From an uncultured Flavobacteriaceae bacterium (GTDB taxonomy: Bacteria; Bacteroidota; Bacteroidia; Flavobacteriales; Flavobacteriaceae): a DNA stretch of 45,810 bases. Under the pieces are notes generated by a model, which saw nothing but the letters and a program-made list of their open reading frames with translations, did not search any database and had not been told where the DNA came from. Below, piece after piece: positions 19,479-26,424 of this stretch. The stretch spans positions 1-45,810 of the forward strand of contig CAJXUB010000010.1 of assembly GCA_913061125.1 (NCBI GenBank), in the 5' to 3' direction. Positions within the stretch are counted from its first letter, which is position 1; every line of letters starts with the position of its first letter. The position numbers and the translations under genes were made by a program.

Positions 19479-20939
19479 TTAGCGCTTGGGGATGTCTGCT
19501 AAAATGGCCTTTAAAAACGTCCAAAACTTCTGAACGGAAGAGATTTGCGCCCGTTCGTCTGGGGAGTGAGCGCCCTTAATATTGGGCCCAAAACTAATCA
19601 TTTCCATATTGGGGTAATGCGTTCCTAAAATCCCGCATTCCAGCCCGGCATGACAGGCCGCCACATGGGGTGGGGTGCCATTAAGTTGGACGTACAAGCG
19701 GGTTAAAACGTTAAGGATGGAAGAGTCCATATTGGGAGTCCAACCGGGATAATCACCAGAAAATTCCACACGGGCTCCAGCCAATTCAAAGGTGGCTTTT
19801 AGGGCTTGTGCCAAATCCCATTTTGAGCTTTCCACAGAAGACCGTGTTAGGCATCCAACGGTAACTTGCCCATCTTGAATCAACACTCGAGCGACGTTGT
19901 TGGAAGTTTCCACCAGCCCCTCAATGTCGGGGCTCATGCGGTACACCCCGTTGTGGGCCACGTACAGGGCTTTAAGCAAGGGTTGTTGAACTTCCAGCGC
20001 CATAACGGTTTTGGGTAATTGGGTTGGATTGACAGCCATAATCAGCTCTGGTTCAAGGGTTTTAAATTCTTTTTCAATGGCAAGTATGAGGTCGTTTGTG
20101 GCTTGTTCAAAAGCCGTTTGATGCACCGCATCGATCACCACCACTGCCGAGCTTTCTCGGGGTATGGCGTTGCGCAAGCTGCCCCCATCGATGGTGGATA
20201 CTCGCAACCCAAAACGGTTAAATCCATCGAAGAGCAATCGGCTCATCAATTTGTTGGCATTTCCAAACCCTTTGTGGATGTCCATCCCAGAATGCCCGCC
20301 CTGTAGCCCTTTGATGGTGAGGCCATAGGCCAATGAATTTTGCGGAACGGAGTCTTGAAAATACGATAGGGTTGCCGTAACATCGATGCCGCCAGCACAA
20401 CCGACGCCAATTTCGTCGTCCTCTTCGGTATCTAAATTGAGTAAAATATCTCCCAATAAAACGCCAGGTTTAAGCCCCATAGCCCCAGTCATTCCTGTTT
20501 CTTCATCGATGGTAAATAAGGCCTCGAGTGCAGGGTGCGGTAGGGTTTTACTTTCCAAAATGGCCATGATGGCAGCCACCCCCAGACCATTATCTGCCCC
20601 CAAAGTGGTGCCTTTGGCTTTGACCCAATCGCCGTCCACATACATTTGAATCCCTTGAGTCAGAAAATCAAAATCTGTATCGGCATTTTTTTGATGAACC
20701 ATGTCCAAATGCGATTGCAAAACCACAGTTTTTCGGTCTTCCATTCCAGACGTAGCGGGTTTTTTAATGATGATATTGCCGATGTCGTCTTCAATGGTTT
20801 CCAAACCTAAAGACGCGCCGAAATCTTTCATAAAGGCCTTAACTTGTTCCTCCTTTTTGGACGGTCGAGGTACGGCGTTGAGATGGGCAAAATGAGTCCA
20901 AATGGGTTTGGGTTCGAGATTTAAAATTTCTGGGGTCAT
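19479..20939 (-). CDS. pepD: Aminoacyl-histidine dipeptidase (PepD, M20 family)
   Basis: The 486-residue protein is a cytosolic two-zinc dipeptidase of the M20 family that prefers Xaa-His dipeptides. Metal ligands and catalytic residues are visible in order: LQSHLDMVHQ (His and Asp), TLGADNGLG (bridging Asp), TIDEETGMTG (Glu-Glu pair), NLDTEEDDE (Asp), and FGPNIKGAHSPDER (His). The insertion domain has GGHSGMDIHKGFGNA. No signal peptide is present. It diverges from the DUF3810 gene and converges on the double-isomerase gene, so it is probably transcribed alone. Confidence 0.95.
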   Translation of the reverse strand: MTPEILNLEPKPIWTHFAHLNAVPRPSKKEEQVKAFMKDFGASLGLETIEDDIGNIIIKKPATSGMEDRKTVVLQSHLDMVHQKNADTDFDFLTQGIQMYVDGDWVKAKGTTLGADNGLGVAAIMAILESKTLPHPALEALFTIDEETGMTGAMGLKPGVLLGDILLNLDTEEDDEIGVGCAGGIDVTATLSYFQDSVPQNSLAYGLTIKGLQGGHSGMDIHKGFGNANKLMSRLLFDGFNRFGLRVSTIDGGSLRNAIPRESSAVVVIDAVHQTAFEQATNDLILAIEKEFKTLEPELIMAVNPTQLPKTVMALEVQQPLLKALYVAHNGVYRMSPDIEGLVETSNNVARVLIQDGQVTVGCLTRSSVESSKWDLAQALKATFELAGARVEFSGDYPGWTPNMDSSILNVLTRLYVQLNGTPPHVAACHAGLECGILGTHYPNMEMISFGPNIKGAHSPDERAQISSVQKFWTFLKAILADIPKR

Positions 20940-20959
20940 GGAATGTGTGTTTTGGAAAG

Positions 20960-20987
20960 TAAAGGTACGAATATCATCTTAAACAAA
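20960..20987 (-). promoter_or_regulatory. Putative promoter of pepD
   Basis: On the minus strand TTTG (20984-20987) is followed after 16 bases by TACCTTTA (20960-20967), a one-base variant of TAnnTTTG. The ATG at 20939 lies 20 bases further on. The spacing is a little short of the usual 19 or so, so confidence is low. Confidence 0.27.
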
Positions 20988-20998
20988 TTTATATTTCT

Positions 20999-21006
20999 TA
21001 CATTTG
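20999..21006 (+). promoter_or_regulatory. Putative -7 element for the DUF3810 gene (possible leaderless start)
   Basis: TACATTTG matches TAnnTTTG exactly and ends just 4 bases before the ATG at 21011. If used, the transcript would begin at or inside the start codon. No matching -33 element is visible. Confidence 0.36.
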
Positions 21007-21010
21007 AGAC

Positions 21011-22069
21011 ATGTCCAAATCCGTCCGATATTTTTTGGCCTTGAGTCTTTTCCCTCAAGTTTTATTGGTTAATGTACTGTCGCAACATCCCGAAGTTGTG
21101 GAGCGGTATTACAGCAATGGATTTTACCCGTTGGTATCTAAACTTTCAAGGCATGTTTTTGGTTGGATTCCCTTTTCTTTTGGTGATATTTTGATTGGTT
21201 TGGCTGTTGTGTACGCGTTGCGTTGGGTTGTTTTACATTTTAAATTTTTCTTCAAAAAACCAAAACAAATTTTGGTGAAAATACTCACAGCATTGTCCGT
21301 AATTTACTTTATGTTTCATCTGTTGTGGGGTTTAAATTACTACCGTCTCCCCCTCAGCGAGCGCCTAAATCTCGAGGTAAAATATACAACGGAAGCTCTA
21401 AAAAACACCACCCAAAAACTGATCGCCTCATCCAATGCCATCCATTTAAGTCTTGCAAAAGACACCAATGCCGTAGTGAAAATTCCGTATGATTTTAAGA
21501 CCATTAAGTCCAAAATTTCAGAGGGTTACAATTTGACCTCAAGGTTGTATCCGTTTTTGAAATACACGCCCGCTAGTCAAAAATACTCGTTGTTCAGTTG
21601 GCCACAGGCCTACATGGGGTTTAGTGGCTATTTGAACCCTTTGACCAACGAGGCGCAGGTAAATTGCCACACTCCAACCAATTCTGTTCCTCTAACTTTG
21701 GCCCACGAGCAAGCCCATCAATTGGGTTATGCTGCAGAAAATGAGGCCAATTTTTTGGCCTTTTTGAGTACCCAACACCACCCGGATCCGCTAATTCGTT
21801 ATGCCGCTCATACTTTCGCTTTACGCTACTGTTTGAACGACCTATTCAAGCGCAACCCCGATGATTTTAAACGGCTTAGAACGGCTGTAAATCCAGGGAT
21901 TTTGGAAGATTTCAGGGTCAGACGTGAGCATTGGGCGCAATTTGAAAATCCATTGGAACCTTATTTCAAATCGGGGTATAATTCCTATTTAAAGGCCAAT
22001 AACCAACAAGAAGGAATCGCCAGCTACAACCGTGTGGTTGCTCTTTTGGTCAATTATTTGCAACAGTAA
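21011..22069 (+). CDS. DUF3810 membrane protein with HExxH motif (putative metalloprotease)
   Basis: The 352-residue protein has two or three membrane helices in its first ~110 residues, for example FSFGDILIGLAVVYALRWVV. A soluble domain, probably periplasmic, follows. It contains SLFSWPQAYMGFSGYLNP and the zincin-type motif LTLAHEQAHQLGYAAENEANF: HEQAH supplies two zinc ligands and a glutamate follows about 10 residues later. This layout fits the DUF3810 family, which is judged peptidase-like by motif; substrates are unknown. It stands apart from its neighbours and is probably transcribed alone. Confidence 0.85.
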   Translation: MSKSVRYFLALSLFPQVLLVNVLSQHPEVVERYYSNGFYPLVSKLSRHVFGWIPFSFGDILIGLAVVYALRWVVLHFKFFFKKPKQILVKILTALSVIYFMFHLLWGLNYYRLPLSERLNLEVKYTTEALKNTTQKLIASSNAIHLSLAKDTNAVVKIPYDFKTIKSKISEGYNLTSRLYPFLKYTPASQKYSLFSWPQAYMGFSGYLNPLTNEAQVNCHTPTNSVPLTLAHEQAHQLGYAAENEANFLAFLSTQHHPDPLIRYAAHTFALRYCLNDLFKRNPDDFKRLRTAVNPGILEDFRVRREHWAQFENPLEPYFKSGYNSYLKANNQQEGIASYNRVVALLVNYLQQ

Positions 22070-22136: not shown

Positions 22137-25112
22137 ATGAAAATTAAATTCCTACTTCTTGGACTGTTGTTCTCATTCGCATCTTTGGCACAAGACTATT
22201 ACCCAAAAAACGATGGTGTAAAAACAAAGGAGCGCAATTTTACAGCAATCACTAACGCTGTAATTTATGTCAGTCCAAAAAAAGTGATTAAAAAAGGGAC
22301 CCTACTGATTCAGAATGGATTGGTGGTAGAAAGCGGAAAAAATGTAAAAATCCCTGAAAATTGCGTTGTATTGGACGCTAAGGGGCATACCATTTACCCG
22401 TCGTTCATAGACCTTTACAGCACATTTGGAGTGGCCAAACCGAAGCGTGCCAGCGGCAGTGGTCGATCCCCTCAATATGGCCCAAATCGAGAGGGGTTTT
22501 ATTGGAACGATCACATTAGAGCCGAGCAAAATGCCATACACCATTTTAAATTTGATGAAAAACAAGCCAAAACGCTACTGCAACACGGGTTCGGGGTGGT
22601 AAATACTCATCTGGCGGACGGCATTGTTCGAGGAACAGGAACACTTGTTGCTTTGGATGTGAATGGCAACGACTCCAAGCGTATTTTAGCCAATCAGTCG
22701 GTGCAATATTTGTCTTTTTCAAAAAGTGTGCAGTCCCGTCAGTCCTACCCCACGTCCATTATGGGGGGGATGGCCTTACTCCGACAATTGTATCACGATG
22801 CCGATTGGTACAGCAAAGGCAATGTTAATACTACCGACCGAACCATTGAAGCGTTTAATGCCAATAGGAACAAACCACAAATCATAGCTGCTGGCAGCCG
22901 AGCCAATGCGCTTCGAGCGGACAAGGTTGGCGATATGTTTAATATTCAATACACTATTTTGGGTGGCGGCGACGAATACGAACGCGTTCAAGACGTTAAA
23001 AATACCAATGCCACCTTCATTATTCCCATCAATTTTCCTAAACCTTATGATGTCGAAAATAGTTTTTTGGCCAGTCGATTGGAACTTGAAAGCATGAGAG
23101 AATGGAACCAACGTCCAGCCAATCCAAAAATTTTAGCTGAAAACGGTGTCCAATTTGCATTAACGATGCACGAATTAAAATCGCCAAAAGCGTTTAAAAC
23201 TAATCTATTGAATGCCATCGCGCACGGGCTTGATAAAACGACAGCTTTAGCCGCCCTCACAACCGTACCTGCACAAGTGCTTAACAATTCCAAAATTGGA
23301 AATTTAAACCCTGGGAGTCATGCCAATTTCATGATTGCTTCAGGAGATTTTTTTGATTCAAAATCTTCTGTTTTGGAACACTGGATTAGGGGGTCGAGAC
23401 ATATTTTTGAGGACATCACACTTCAAGACATTCGAGGAGAATATCATTTTGATTTGGAAGGCGTGTCCTACACCCTTGACGTGACTGGGTCAAAAACCAG
23501 CCCAAAGGCCACTCTAAAATCAAATCAAACCACTTACAGTTCCAATTTATCCTACAAAAACGATTGGGTGCATTTGCTATTTACGGGTCAAGATACCACT
23601 CAACAAGAATTTTTGCGATTTAACGCAAAAATTCTTTCGAATTCAACAGAGCTTAACGGTACCGTTAGTTTTGAGGATGGCCGCTCGCAAGCTCTAACAA
23701 TGAGTAAATTGGATGCTAAAAAGACCAAAGAAAAAACCAATCAAGAAGACCCGAAAAACAAAACTATTATTCCCATAACTTTTCCTAATGTGGCCTACGG
23801 TCATACCGCCCTACCAAAGGCCGAAACACTTTTATTTAGAAATGCTACGGTTTGGACCAATGAGGCCGATGGAATTTTAAAAAACACGGATGTCTTAATT
23901 AAAAATGGAAAAATTTCTGCCATTGGTCAAAATCTAAACGTTCGAGGTGCAAAAATCGTGGATGCCACAGGAAAACACCTAACCTGTGGGGTTATAGACG
24001 AGCATTCGCACATTGCTGCAGCGAGCATTAATGAAGCTGGACAAAACTCATCGGCAGAAGTTAGTATTGAAGATGTGGTGGAAGCGGATGATGTGAACAT
24101 TTACCGGAATCTATCAGGAGGGGTTACCACCATTCAAATTTTGCACGGATCGGCCAATCCTATTGGAGGTCGCTCGGCCATTATAAAATTGAAATGGGGA
24201 GAATCGTCTGAAGATTTGATCTATAAAAATACCCCAAAATTTATAAAATTTGCCCTTGGCGAGAACGTGAAGCAATCCAATTGGGAAAGCTACAGCCGTT
24301 TTCCACAAACTAGAATGGGGGTTGAGCAAATGTATGTGGATTATTTTTCCAGAGCCAAAGCGTATGACGATGCCAAAAAAAGCGGAGAACCGTACAGAAC
24401 AGACATTGAAATGGAAGTTCTCGCTGAAGTTTTAAACAAAGAGCGGTTTATCAGTTGCCATTCTTATGTGCAAAGCGAAATCAATATGTTGATGAAAGTG
24501 GCGGAGCAATTTGATTTCAATATCAATACCTTTACCCATATTTTGGAAGGTTATAAATTGGCCGACAAAATGAAAACTCACGGCGCGGGAGCCTCCACAT
24601 TTAGCGATTGGTGGGCCTACAAATATGAAGTTAATGACGCCATCCCACACAATGCGGCAATTTTAAGTGACATGGGTGTTGTAACGGCCATTAATAGTGA
24701 TGATGCTGAAATGTCCAGACGTCTGAATCAAGAAGCAGCCAAAGCTGTCAAATATGGTGGCGCATCAGAAGAAGAGGCTTGGAAAATGGTAACACTAAAT
24801 CCTGCAAAACTTCTTCACATTGATGACAAAGTGGGAAGTATCAAAATTGGAAAAGATGCCGATGTTGTGTTATGGAACACCAACCCACTATCGATATACG
24901 CCAAAGCAGAAAAAACCATCATTGAGGGGGTCACCTATTTTGATTTAGAAACAGATAAAAAACATCGAATCTCAATCCAAGATGAAAGAAATTCGTTGAT
25001 TCAAATGATGCTAAAAGCCAAAAATAAAGGCATGAAAACACAACCCGTAAAGGTGAACAAAAAGTTAGACATGCATTGCGACACGCTGGATCATCACGAA
25101 CACGAACACTAA
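22137..25112 (+). CDS. Exported protein with two amidohydrolase modules, first one degenerate
   Basis: The 991-residue protein has a signal peptide ending ASLAQ. Residues ~35-450 have the overall frame of an imidazolonepropionase/TolB-type amidohydrolase, including a C-terminal TTVPAQVLNNSKIGNLNPGSHANF stretch. The first metal site is lost: the usual DxHxH reads IDLYSTFG (~residues 91-98). After a beta-rich region, residues ~570-960 form a second, complete amidohydrolase. Its ligands are IDEHSHIAAA (HxH near 623), SCHSYVQ, NTFTHILEG and INSDDAEM, and the family end NPAKLLHIDDKVGSIKIGKDADVVLW is present. The C-terminus, MHCDTLDHHEHEH, is His/Asp-rich. It is probably a periplasmic hydrolase; the substrate is unknown. 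Confidence 0.9.
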   Translation: MKIKFLLLGLLFSFASLAQDYYPKNDGVKTKERNFTAITNAVIYVSPKKVIKKGTLLIQNGLVVESGKNVKIPENCVVLDAKGHTIYPSFIDLYSTFGVAKPKRASGSGRSPQYGPNREGFYWNDHIRAEQNAIHHFKFDEKQAKTLLQHGFGVVNTHLADGIVRGTGTLVALDVNGNDSKRILANQSVQYLSFSKSVQSRQSYPTSIMGGMALLRQLYHDADWYSKGNVNTTDRTIEAFNANRNKPQIIAAGSRANALRADKVGDMFNIQYTILGGGDEYERVQDVKNTNATFIIPINFPKPYDVENSFLASRLELESMREWNQRPANPKILAENGVQFALTMHELKSPKAFKTNLLNAIAHGLDKTTALAALTTVPAQVLNNSKIGNLNPGSHANFMIASGDFFDSKSSVLEHWIRGSRHIFEDITLQDIRGEYHFDLEGVSYTLDVTGSKTSPKATLKSNQTTYSSNLSYKNDWVHLLFTGQDTTQQEFLRFNAKILSNSTELNGTVSFEDGRSQALTMSKLDAKKTKEKTNQEDPKNKTIIPITFPNVAYGHTALPKAETLLFRNATVWTNEADGILKNTDVLIKNGKISAIGQNLNVRGAKIVDATGKHLTCGVIDEHSHIAAASINEAGQNSSAEVSIEDVVEADDVNIYRNLSGGVTTIQILHGSANPIGGRSAIIKLKWGESSEDLIYKNTPKFIKFALGENVKQSNWESYSRFPQTRMGVEQMYVDYFSRAKAYDDAKKSGEPYRTDIEMEVLAEVLNKERFISCHSYVQSEINMLMKVAEQFDFNINTFTHILEGYKLADKMKTHGAGASTFSDWWAYKYEVNDAIPHNAAILSDMGVVTAINSDDAEMSRRLNQEAAKAVKYGGASEEEAWKMVTLNPAKLLHIDDKVGSIKIGKDADVVLWNTNPLSIYAKAEKTIIEGVTYFDLETDKKHRISIQDERNSLIQMMLKAKNKGMKTQPVKVNKKLDMHCDTLDHHEHEH

Positions 25113-25122
25113 TACCGATACT

Positions 25123-26424
25123 ATGAAATTTTATATAAAATTCTTAACGCTTTTCACATTAATCTTGTCCGTGCACGCCCAACAAACGCCTGCGCCATCG
25201 CAACAACAGGCCATCGCTATAACTGGAGCCACAGCACACCTCGGAACCGGAGAGGTCATTGAAAACAGTTTAATCATTTTCAATAACGGCCTGTTGGAAT
25301 ATGTGGGACAACTGGATTCAACGCGAATAAATTCCGATATGGAAGTAATTGATGCCCAAAACCAACACGTTTACCCAGGTTTTATCATTCCAAATTCGAC
25401 TTTGGGACTTATTGAAATTGATGCCGTTCGGGCCTCTGATGACGATGCTGAAATTGGGACATGGAATCCACACATTCGAAGTTTAATTGCCTACAATACA
25501 GAATCTAAAGTAGTTGAAACCATGCGCCCTAATGGGGTTCTTTTGGCACAAATTACACCTCGTGGTGGACGAATTTCTGGAAAATCGTCAGTTGTTCAAC
25601 TGGACGCCTGGAATTGGGAAGATGCCACCATTAAAACCGACGAGGGAATTCATATGAATTGGCCCAGTAATTTTAGTTATGGTCGATGGTGGTTGGGTGA
25701 AAGTCCTGGACTAAAAGTCAATGATAAATACAACGATCAAGTATCTGAAGTTGAAACATATTTTTCCAATGCCAAAGCCCATTTAGCAACCAAATCAAAA
25801 GGAACACACCTCCCCTACGAAGCCATGACAGGTTTGTTTGACGGAACAACTAAATTATACATTCATGTAGACGATGAAAAAGGAATAGTAGATGCCGTAA
25901 CCGCTGCTCAAAACCACAACATCAGCGATATTGTTTTGGTGGGAGCTTACGAGGCCTACAAAGTTGCTTCTTTTTTGAAAACGAATAAAATCCCAGTCTT
26001 GTTACGGCGCGTCCACTCCCGACCAAATAAATCGGACGAAGACTATGATTTGCCTTTCAAATTGGCCAAAATGTTGGTCGATGCTGGAGTTGTAGTGGCC
26101 TTGGAGGCCAGCGGTGATATGGAGCGAATGAACTCCAGAAACTTACCATTTTATGCAGGAACCACAGTAGCATTTGGCCTCACAAAAGCCCAAGCTTTAA
26201 AACTCATTACGCTAAATCCCGCTAAAATTTTGGGAATTGACGACCAATACGGCAGTTTAGAATCTGGTAAAAGCGCCACTTTATTCATCAGCAGCGGCGA
26301 TGCTTTAGACATGCGAACCAACCAATTGACCCGTGCTTTCATTGATGGCCGTGATATCAGTTTGGAAAGCCATCAAACCAAGCTCTGGAAACGCTACTCC
26401 AACAAATATAAAACTCAGGAGTAA
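25123..26424 (+). CDS. Exported amidohydrolase-family protein lacking the HxH metal site
   Basis: The 433-residue protein has a signal peptide ending VHAQ. It resembles the first module of the preceding protein: a small beta-domain (AITGATAHLGTGEVIENSLIIF), a barrel, and the family end TLNPAKILGIDDQYGSLESGKSATLF. Where active members carry DxHxH it reads YPGFIIPNSTLG (~residues 83-94), so the first metal ligands are missing. Later ligand positions also look altered, with ALEASGDMERM where an Asp box is expected. It may be a non-catalytic partner of the protein encoded 10 bases upstream. The two genes are surely co-transcribed. Confidence 0.88.
   Translation: MKFYIKFLTLFTLILSVHAQQTPAPSQQQAIAITGATAHLGTGEVIENSLIIFNNGLLEYVGQLDSTRINSDMEVIDAQNQHVYPGFIIPNSTLGLIEIDAVRASDDDAEIGTWNPHIRSLIAYNTESKVVETMRPNGVLLAQITPRGGRISGKSSVVQLDAWNWEDATIKTDEGIHMNWPSNFSYGRWWLGESPGLKVNDKYNDQVSEVETYFSNAKAHLATKSKGTHLPYEAMTGLFDGTTKLYIHVDDEKGIVDAVTAAQNHNISDIVLVGAYEAYKVASFLKTNKIPVLLRRVHSRPNKSDEDYDLPFKLAKMLVDAGVVVALEASGDMERMNSRNLPFYAGTTVAFGLTKAQALKLITLNPAKILGIDDQYGSLESGKSATLFISSGDALDMRTNQLTRAFIDGRDISLESHQTKLWKRYSNKYKTQE

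Follow-up and report, generated by a model that had tools for sequence, protein, structure and literature searches.

The locus and its gene products

The stretch of DNA analysed here, referred to as the window, comprises 45,810 nucleotides of an uncultured Flavobacteriaceae bacterium (GenBank assembly GCA_913061125.1, contig CAJXUB010000010.1). It contains two adjacent genes whose products together carry three amidohydrolase modules, M1 and M2 in protein 1 and M3 in protein 2. Only M2 has retained the residues of a catalytic metal site and is called live in the following; M1 and M3 have lost them and are called dead. The evidence described below points to the inactive modules as permanent functional components of a single protein complex, not as relics. 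The features of the locus are as follows.

22137-25112, + strand: protein 1, open reading frame of 991 residues with a signal sequence, dead M1, a beta linker, live M2 and a C-terminal tail
22230-23420, + strand: M1 (residues 32-428), degenerate amidohydrolase module
22407-22430, + strand: IDLYSTFG at the HxH place of M1 (protein 1 residues 91-98)
23421-23816, + strand: linker (residues 429-560) with eight beta strands predicted by AlphaFold2 and no Pfam match; the fastest evolving part
23817-24971, + strand: M2 (residues 561-945), intact module with H623, H625, E709, H775, H801 and D855
Protein 1 residues 620-626, + strand: IDEHSHI in M2
24972-25112, + strand: C-terminal tail of protein 1 with Cys981 (HCDTL), a His-rich end and the stop codon
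25123-26424, + strand: protein 2, open reading frame of 433 residues with a signal sequence and dead M3
25204-26382, + strand: M3 (protein 2 residues 28-420)
25381-25407, + strand: FIIPNSTLG in M3 (protein 2 residues 87-95)

The genes are separated by 10 bases and lie on the same strand, a spacing from which they are probably transcribed as a single mRNA. Judged by eye, both proteins start with a Sec-type signal sequence, and a crude test for a hydrophobic run revealed a signal-like start in 133 of 137 fused protein-1 relatives and in 170 of 181 M3 proteins. The sequence-only reading of the window had claimed three amidohydrolase modules in two exported proteins, with a single intact HxH motif; this observation was confirmed. 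Chance or mis-framed open reading frames are ruled out; the modules are kept in relatives across the phylum. As the distribution of dead and live modules is conserved over the Bacteroidota, it is not due to chance.

Fold of the modules

Profile-profile comparisons with hhalign reveal the homology of the modules to each other (M1 with M2, E = 1.3e-40; M2 with M3, 8.9e-50; M1 with M3, 2.6e-63). The best amidohydrolase stretches found by Pfam fall in M2 and M3. Structure prediction, which had been recommended for each module, was carried out with AlphaFold2 on the single chains and resulted in a mean predicted local distance difference test score (pLDDT) of 81.8 for protein 1 and 80.4 for protein 2. 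M2 and M3 of these models superpose on 3ooq, an amidohydrolase of Thermotoga maritima whose PDB title names no function and which is the closest solved relative of both modules. For M2 the comparison yielded a VIA Z of 41.5 and a root-mean-square deviation of 2.5 over 365 aligned residues with 34% identity, and for M3 a VIA Z of 41.8 and a deviation of 2.6 over 357 aligned residues with 24% identity; the Foldseek TM-score of M3, by target, was 0.84. The corresponding sequence matches had E-values of 4.6e-54 (M2) and 2.4e-31 (M3). By Foldseek and VIA, the predicted structures of M2 and M3 have the amidohydrolase superfamily fold, a TIM-barrel metallo-hydrolase with a small beta domain. The structural searches covered M2 and M3; M1 is assigned to the fold by its profile-profile match to M2 and a mostly confident model.

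A relationship to imidazolonepropionase-like amidohydrolases, for which an alignment had been proposed, holds for the fold. Imidazolonepropionase, isoaspartyl dipeptidase and amidohydrolases of the Xaa-Pro/Arg/Lys type share it with a VIA Z of about 21-25, as against 41-42 for 3ooq, and their sequence relation is distant. The cut-off of the HutI family (TIGR01224), 298.15 bits, was missed by far (protein 1, 56.7 bits; protein 2, 29.8 bits), and no cut-off of an NCBIfam equivalog was reached among the 25 matches listed per protein, 62 and 28 families having been matched overall. The public annotations encountered were "amidohydrolase" or "amidohydrolase family protein".

The metal site is kept in M2 and lost in M1 and M3

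Catalytic members of the amidohydrolase superfamily carry an HxH motif on strand 1, histidines on strands 5 and 6, and an aspartate on strand 8. The ligands were surveyed in an alignment of 201 modules (58 M1, 57 M2 and 55 M3, with the genes of a two-gene form, here called pair-type, included), and conservation in larger sets of 171 M1, 171 M2 and 181 M3. His623, His625, His775, His801 and Asp855, together with Glu709, are present in 57/57 and 171/171 M2 modules. They would form a two-metal site from HxH, Glu709, His775, His801 and Asp855, with Glu709 as the ligand that, from the known subtypes, we take to bridge the two metals. The strand-6 histidine is absent from every M1 (0/58), every M3 (0/55) and every pair-type dead gene (0/15). 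The other ligand positions mostly drift, the first histidine being replaced mostly by Tyr or Phe in M1 and mostly by Asn or Gly in M3. The loss is graded: HSH persists in a single M1 (locus L142), 20 of 55 M3 retain the strand-5 histidine, and 10 of the 15 dead genes of the pair type retain the first histidine. All 16 pair-type live genes have HxH, both further histidines and the aspartate, but Glu709 is replaced by Thr. Conservation of at least 97% is found in 91 columns of M2, 30 of M3 and 17 of M1.

Alternative metal ligands in the first and third modules, named in the sequence-only reading as a finding that would overturn it, were not found: no His or Cys is conserved at 93% or more in the 171 M1 or the 181 M3 modules, and the ligand positions drift. 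M1 and/or M3 might still catalyze a reaction through a relocated, non-canonical site, a view with which the strong purifying selection on both modules and the near-invariance of E98, D107 and E110 in M3 (181, 181 and 180 of 181) would agree. Given the variable ligand positions and the lack of a conserved His or Cys, we regard such a site as quite improbable.

Co-occurrence, gene order and linkage

A scan with protein 1, confirmed by tblastn, yielded at least 80 loci, and each of the best 80 has a full-length relative. Protein 2 follows protein 1 in 78 of these 80, once truncated by the end of the contig; the other two copies of protein 1, at L061 and L065, lie within about 320 bases of a contig end. 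The survey was then widened to a tool-drawn sample of 395 Bacteroidota genomes, whose tables were read by eye and then counted, with E-values of 1e-30 or better for protein 1 and 1e-17 or better for protein 2 taken as strong matches. Protein 1 was strongly matched in 214 genomes and protein 2 in 213 of these 214; the other 181 genomes had a strong match to neither protein. The apparent loss of M3 in the one exceptional genome is not counted as such because its locus runs into unread bases within M2. Besides this genome, the 214 comprise 88 with fused M1-M2 and an adjoining M3, 24 with fused M1-M2 and M3 elsewhere, 34 three-gene genomes (35 loci read), 15 with the two-gene form, and 52 that were counted on E-values alone and in which M1 is therefore unchecked. 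M1 and M2 thus share one polypeptide chain in 112 genomes. Wherever linked genes were read, in fused form or as three genes, the modules come in the order M1, M2, M3, and M3 is a separate gene at all loci read.

Separate, unlinked occurrence of the two genes, which had likewise been expected to speak against a partnership, was found in part. M3 lies apart from protein 1 in the 24 genomes mentioned, and this is not an effect of assembly, since the two are far from each other in the single-contig genomes G043 and G059; M3 is missing from no readable place.

A few loci deviate. Genome G042 has two M1-M2-M3 sets (L215, L216), and in the three-gene locus L216 the place of M1 is held by a very divergent module. 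Genome G136 contains two M3 genes on different contigs (L244, L245), one cut by a contig end. On a Hymenobacter plasmid (L252), the M1-M2-M3 locus is split into several reading frames. An M1 encoded by a gene of its own often carries about 120-130 additional C-terminal residues; others are without them. Two loci titled Rhodobacteraceae (L012) and Chlorobiota (L016), whose proteins share 68% and 67% identity with the window protein, fall among flavobacterial matches and perhaps stem from mislabelled bins.

Simpler forms of the system also exist. The two-gene form, in 15 of the 214 genomes, has the live gene before the dead one (one instance is cut by contig ends). Two Sphingomonadales records contain a live gene with an intact site and a signal-like start, followed by a gene without a metal site. 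In four Gram-positive records the live gene stands alone and has no signal-like start; no second match was found within 4 kb. All six records come from a plasmid collection.

A dead fold that has long been kept, is fused to or travels with a live one and is missing from no readable Bacteroidota locus is best explained as a subunit. The dead modules could also act on their own within one pathway, for instance as periplasmic proteins that bind substrate or product, and be co-inherited because of that pathway without sharing a complex. M3 as its own gene at all loci, its lack of linkage in 24 genomes and the solitary live gene of the Gram-positive records would fit this alternative. We think it unlikely in view of the covalent M1-M2 fusion, the nearly strict co-presence in 213 of 214 genomes and the derivation of the dead modules from the enzyme's own fold.

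Selective constraint on the dead modules

The ratio of nonsynonymous to synonymous substitution (omega) was determined for 35 moderately close pairs (synonymous divergence, dS, of M2 0.1-1.2), of which 30-35 were usable per part; the pairs are not independent. The median omega was 0.071 (M1), 0.148 (linker), 0.037 (M2) and 0.060 (M3); the dead modules are thus held by selection, their values being less than twice that of the live enzyme. In favour of decaying relics carried along by the operon speaks the staged loss of ligands, seen in the HSH of one M1, the strand-5 histidine of 20/55 M3 and the first histidine of 10/15 pair-type dead genes. An omega near 0.06-0.07 and retention throughout the phylum, even where M3 is unlinked, disfavour relics so strongly that we give this explanation hardly any weight.

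Tail cysteines and unordered segments

A cysteine in the C-terminal tail of protein 1 occurs in 165 of 171 three-module loci, Cys774, which adjoins the metal ligand His775, in 160, and both in 158. They could form a disulfide over the active site or belong to an arm resembling a cysteine switch. The dead modules might regulate M2 as a cap or inhibitor whose effect ends with the arrival of a signal or of the substrate, and Cys981 and Cys774 may take part in this. The two cysteines are associated (Fisher test, 1.3e-4), although this value ignores kinship, and the four loci that lack both share a short tail, and the two of them that were included in a tree are sisters. Moreover, seven loci have the tail cysteine without Cys774 and two have Cys774 without the tail cysteine, and the tail is unplaced in the AlphaFold2 model. 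A regulatory role is on this evidence improbable.

M3 residues 95-134, among them E98, D107, E110 and the less strictly conserved N125 (169 of 181) and S128 (175 of 181), have a pLDDT below 50 almost throughout in the single-chain model, as have conserved loops of M2 around 633-639, 710-722 and 825-827. These conserved segments may be loops that become ordered only on complex formation, and the location of E98, D107 and E110 in such a segment is as expected if a partner orders it.

Evolutionary history

In one of the preferred trees, the four Gram-positive live genes served as outgroup and the columns of the metal site were removed. All 40 dead modules fell on one side of a branch with support 94/90, within which M1, M3 and the alphaproteobacterial dead genes grouped together (97/91). 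The live genes branched in matching order, first the pair-type genes (89/86 for all exported live genes) and then the alphaproteobacterial genes with M2 (100/96). A triplication confined to Bacteroidota, with M1, M2 and M3 held together, was rejected by the approximately unbiased (AU) test (p-AU 0.016), as was a sister relationship of the alphaproteobacterial live and dead genes (p-AU 0.0097). A single clade of all dead modules is supported but not settled. According to the trees and AU tests, M1 and M3 most likely descend from a dead subunit that predates the Bacteroidota system. A single cytosolic enzyme would have become exported, and its duplication would have given one live and one dead subunit; a second duplication of the dead subunit, in most Bacteroidota lineages seen, would have created the dead-live-dead arrangement.

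Neighbouring genes

Directly upstream of protein 1 lies a DUF3810 gene; a divergent dipeptidase gene, presumably of the M20 type from its sequence, is a further neighbour.

19479-22069: DUF3810 gene and divergent M20-type dipeptidase gene

In the 80 closest loci, some of which are too short to tell, the flanking genes are kept (DUF3810 in 78, PepD in 63, SpoU in 56). At 61 loci from other genomes none of the window's flanking genes is kept, barring two stray matches, and ten neighbours identified in other lineages (from nine loci, out of 56 neighbours listed) are mutually unrelated. A peptide transporter adjoins one alphaproteobacterial pair, a single case. Deduction of a function from gene neighbours was dropped, as the identified neighbours are unrelated and DUF3810, PepD and SpoU reflect synteny of the closest loci.

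A proposed heteromeric amidohydrolase

The explanation we favour, and consider rather probable, is a heteromeric exported metallo-amidohydrolase in which the single live module M2 works only, or only properly, in a complex with the dead M1 and M3. We infer the complex, its geometry and catalysis by M2. M2 would be the catalytic module, with M1, fused in front of it, and M3, from the next gene, as partners. The dead modules would occupy the places taken by identical subunits in ordinary amidohydrolase oligomers, keep the exported M2 in its folded state and shape the entrance to its active site. Family relatives cleave the amide bonds of both small peptides and N-acyl amino acids. From these activities alone we guess that the enzyme splits an amide bond in a small compound that resembles a peptide or is an N-acyl amino acid. 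The sequence-only reading, which proposed a partnership of the dead modules with the live one, gains indirect support from the co-presence, the constant order, the M1-M2 fusion, the purifying selection and the distant live/dead pairs; the partners may be structural, substrate-binding or regulatory.

Several points weigh against this picture. M3 is present without being linked in 24 genomes, and M1 is much less conserved (17 columns) than M3 and M2. A low pLDDT can also stem, among other things, from a shallow alignment or the missing metal, and the unrelated neighbours in other lineages give no pathway. The sister grouping of M1 and M3 has a support of only 88/75. A sister relationship of the pair-type live and dead genes was not rejected (p-AU 0.40); the metal site may therefore have been lost twice, and the pair-type dead gene may have a separate origin. 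In the first tree, whose three distant outgroup sequences split up, the pair-type dead genes grouped with live genes; we prefer the later trees because they have no over-long branch, a choice made after the trees had been seen. Fast dead branches could also attract one another. Finally, the alphaproteobacterial evidence consists of two plasmid records and the Gram-positive evidence of four. A fuller version of the heteromeric model, which would make the exported amidohydrolase the first described member of its class of heteromeric enzymes, is advanced only tentatively: an ancestral dead twin would have arisen once, by duplication and loss of the metal site, been kept in Bacteroidota and some Alphaproteobacteria, and been reduplicated to yield an obligate dead-live-dead complex whose dead modules complete the live site from outside.

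Comparison with known systems

The closest solved relative, 3ooq, resembles M2 in having the same HxH-E-H-H-D residues in the alignment, as judged by eye, and differs from the window system in being a single live chain. The closest analogue would be the pseudo-dihydroorotase (pDHO) of Pseudomonas aeruginosa, which, as far as the account in PMC7053772 goes, is an inactive homologue of the amidohydrolase superfamily needed for assembly and activity of aspartate transcarbamoylase. In that account, the partner of pDHO is an unrelated transcarbamoylase, whereas the window system is exported and combines a live homologue with two dead relatives. The dead modules do not belong to the pDHO-aspartate transcarbamoylase system, their neighbour and fusion partner being a homologous live amidohydrolase module. 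Among metallopeptidases, inactive homologues scaffold or regulate their live cousins, according to the review PMC11266112; the proteins treated there are of other folds and families than the window modules.

In the open-access literature searched, with subscription papers and preprints outside its scope, no report of a dead-live-dead arrangement was found. Pseudoenzyme partners are known singly. If the proposed model is true, a lone live enzyme, a live and dead pair and the dead-live-dead form are all extant stages, through which the stepwise origin of an obligate pseudoenzyme complex becomes testable. Among the proteins annotated as "amidohydrolase family protein" are many that cannot function as ordinary metalloenzymes; caution is advised against assaying M2 by itself. 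The principle that a dead amidohydrolase chain is required by another enzyme is already known from pDHO.

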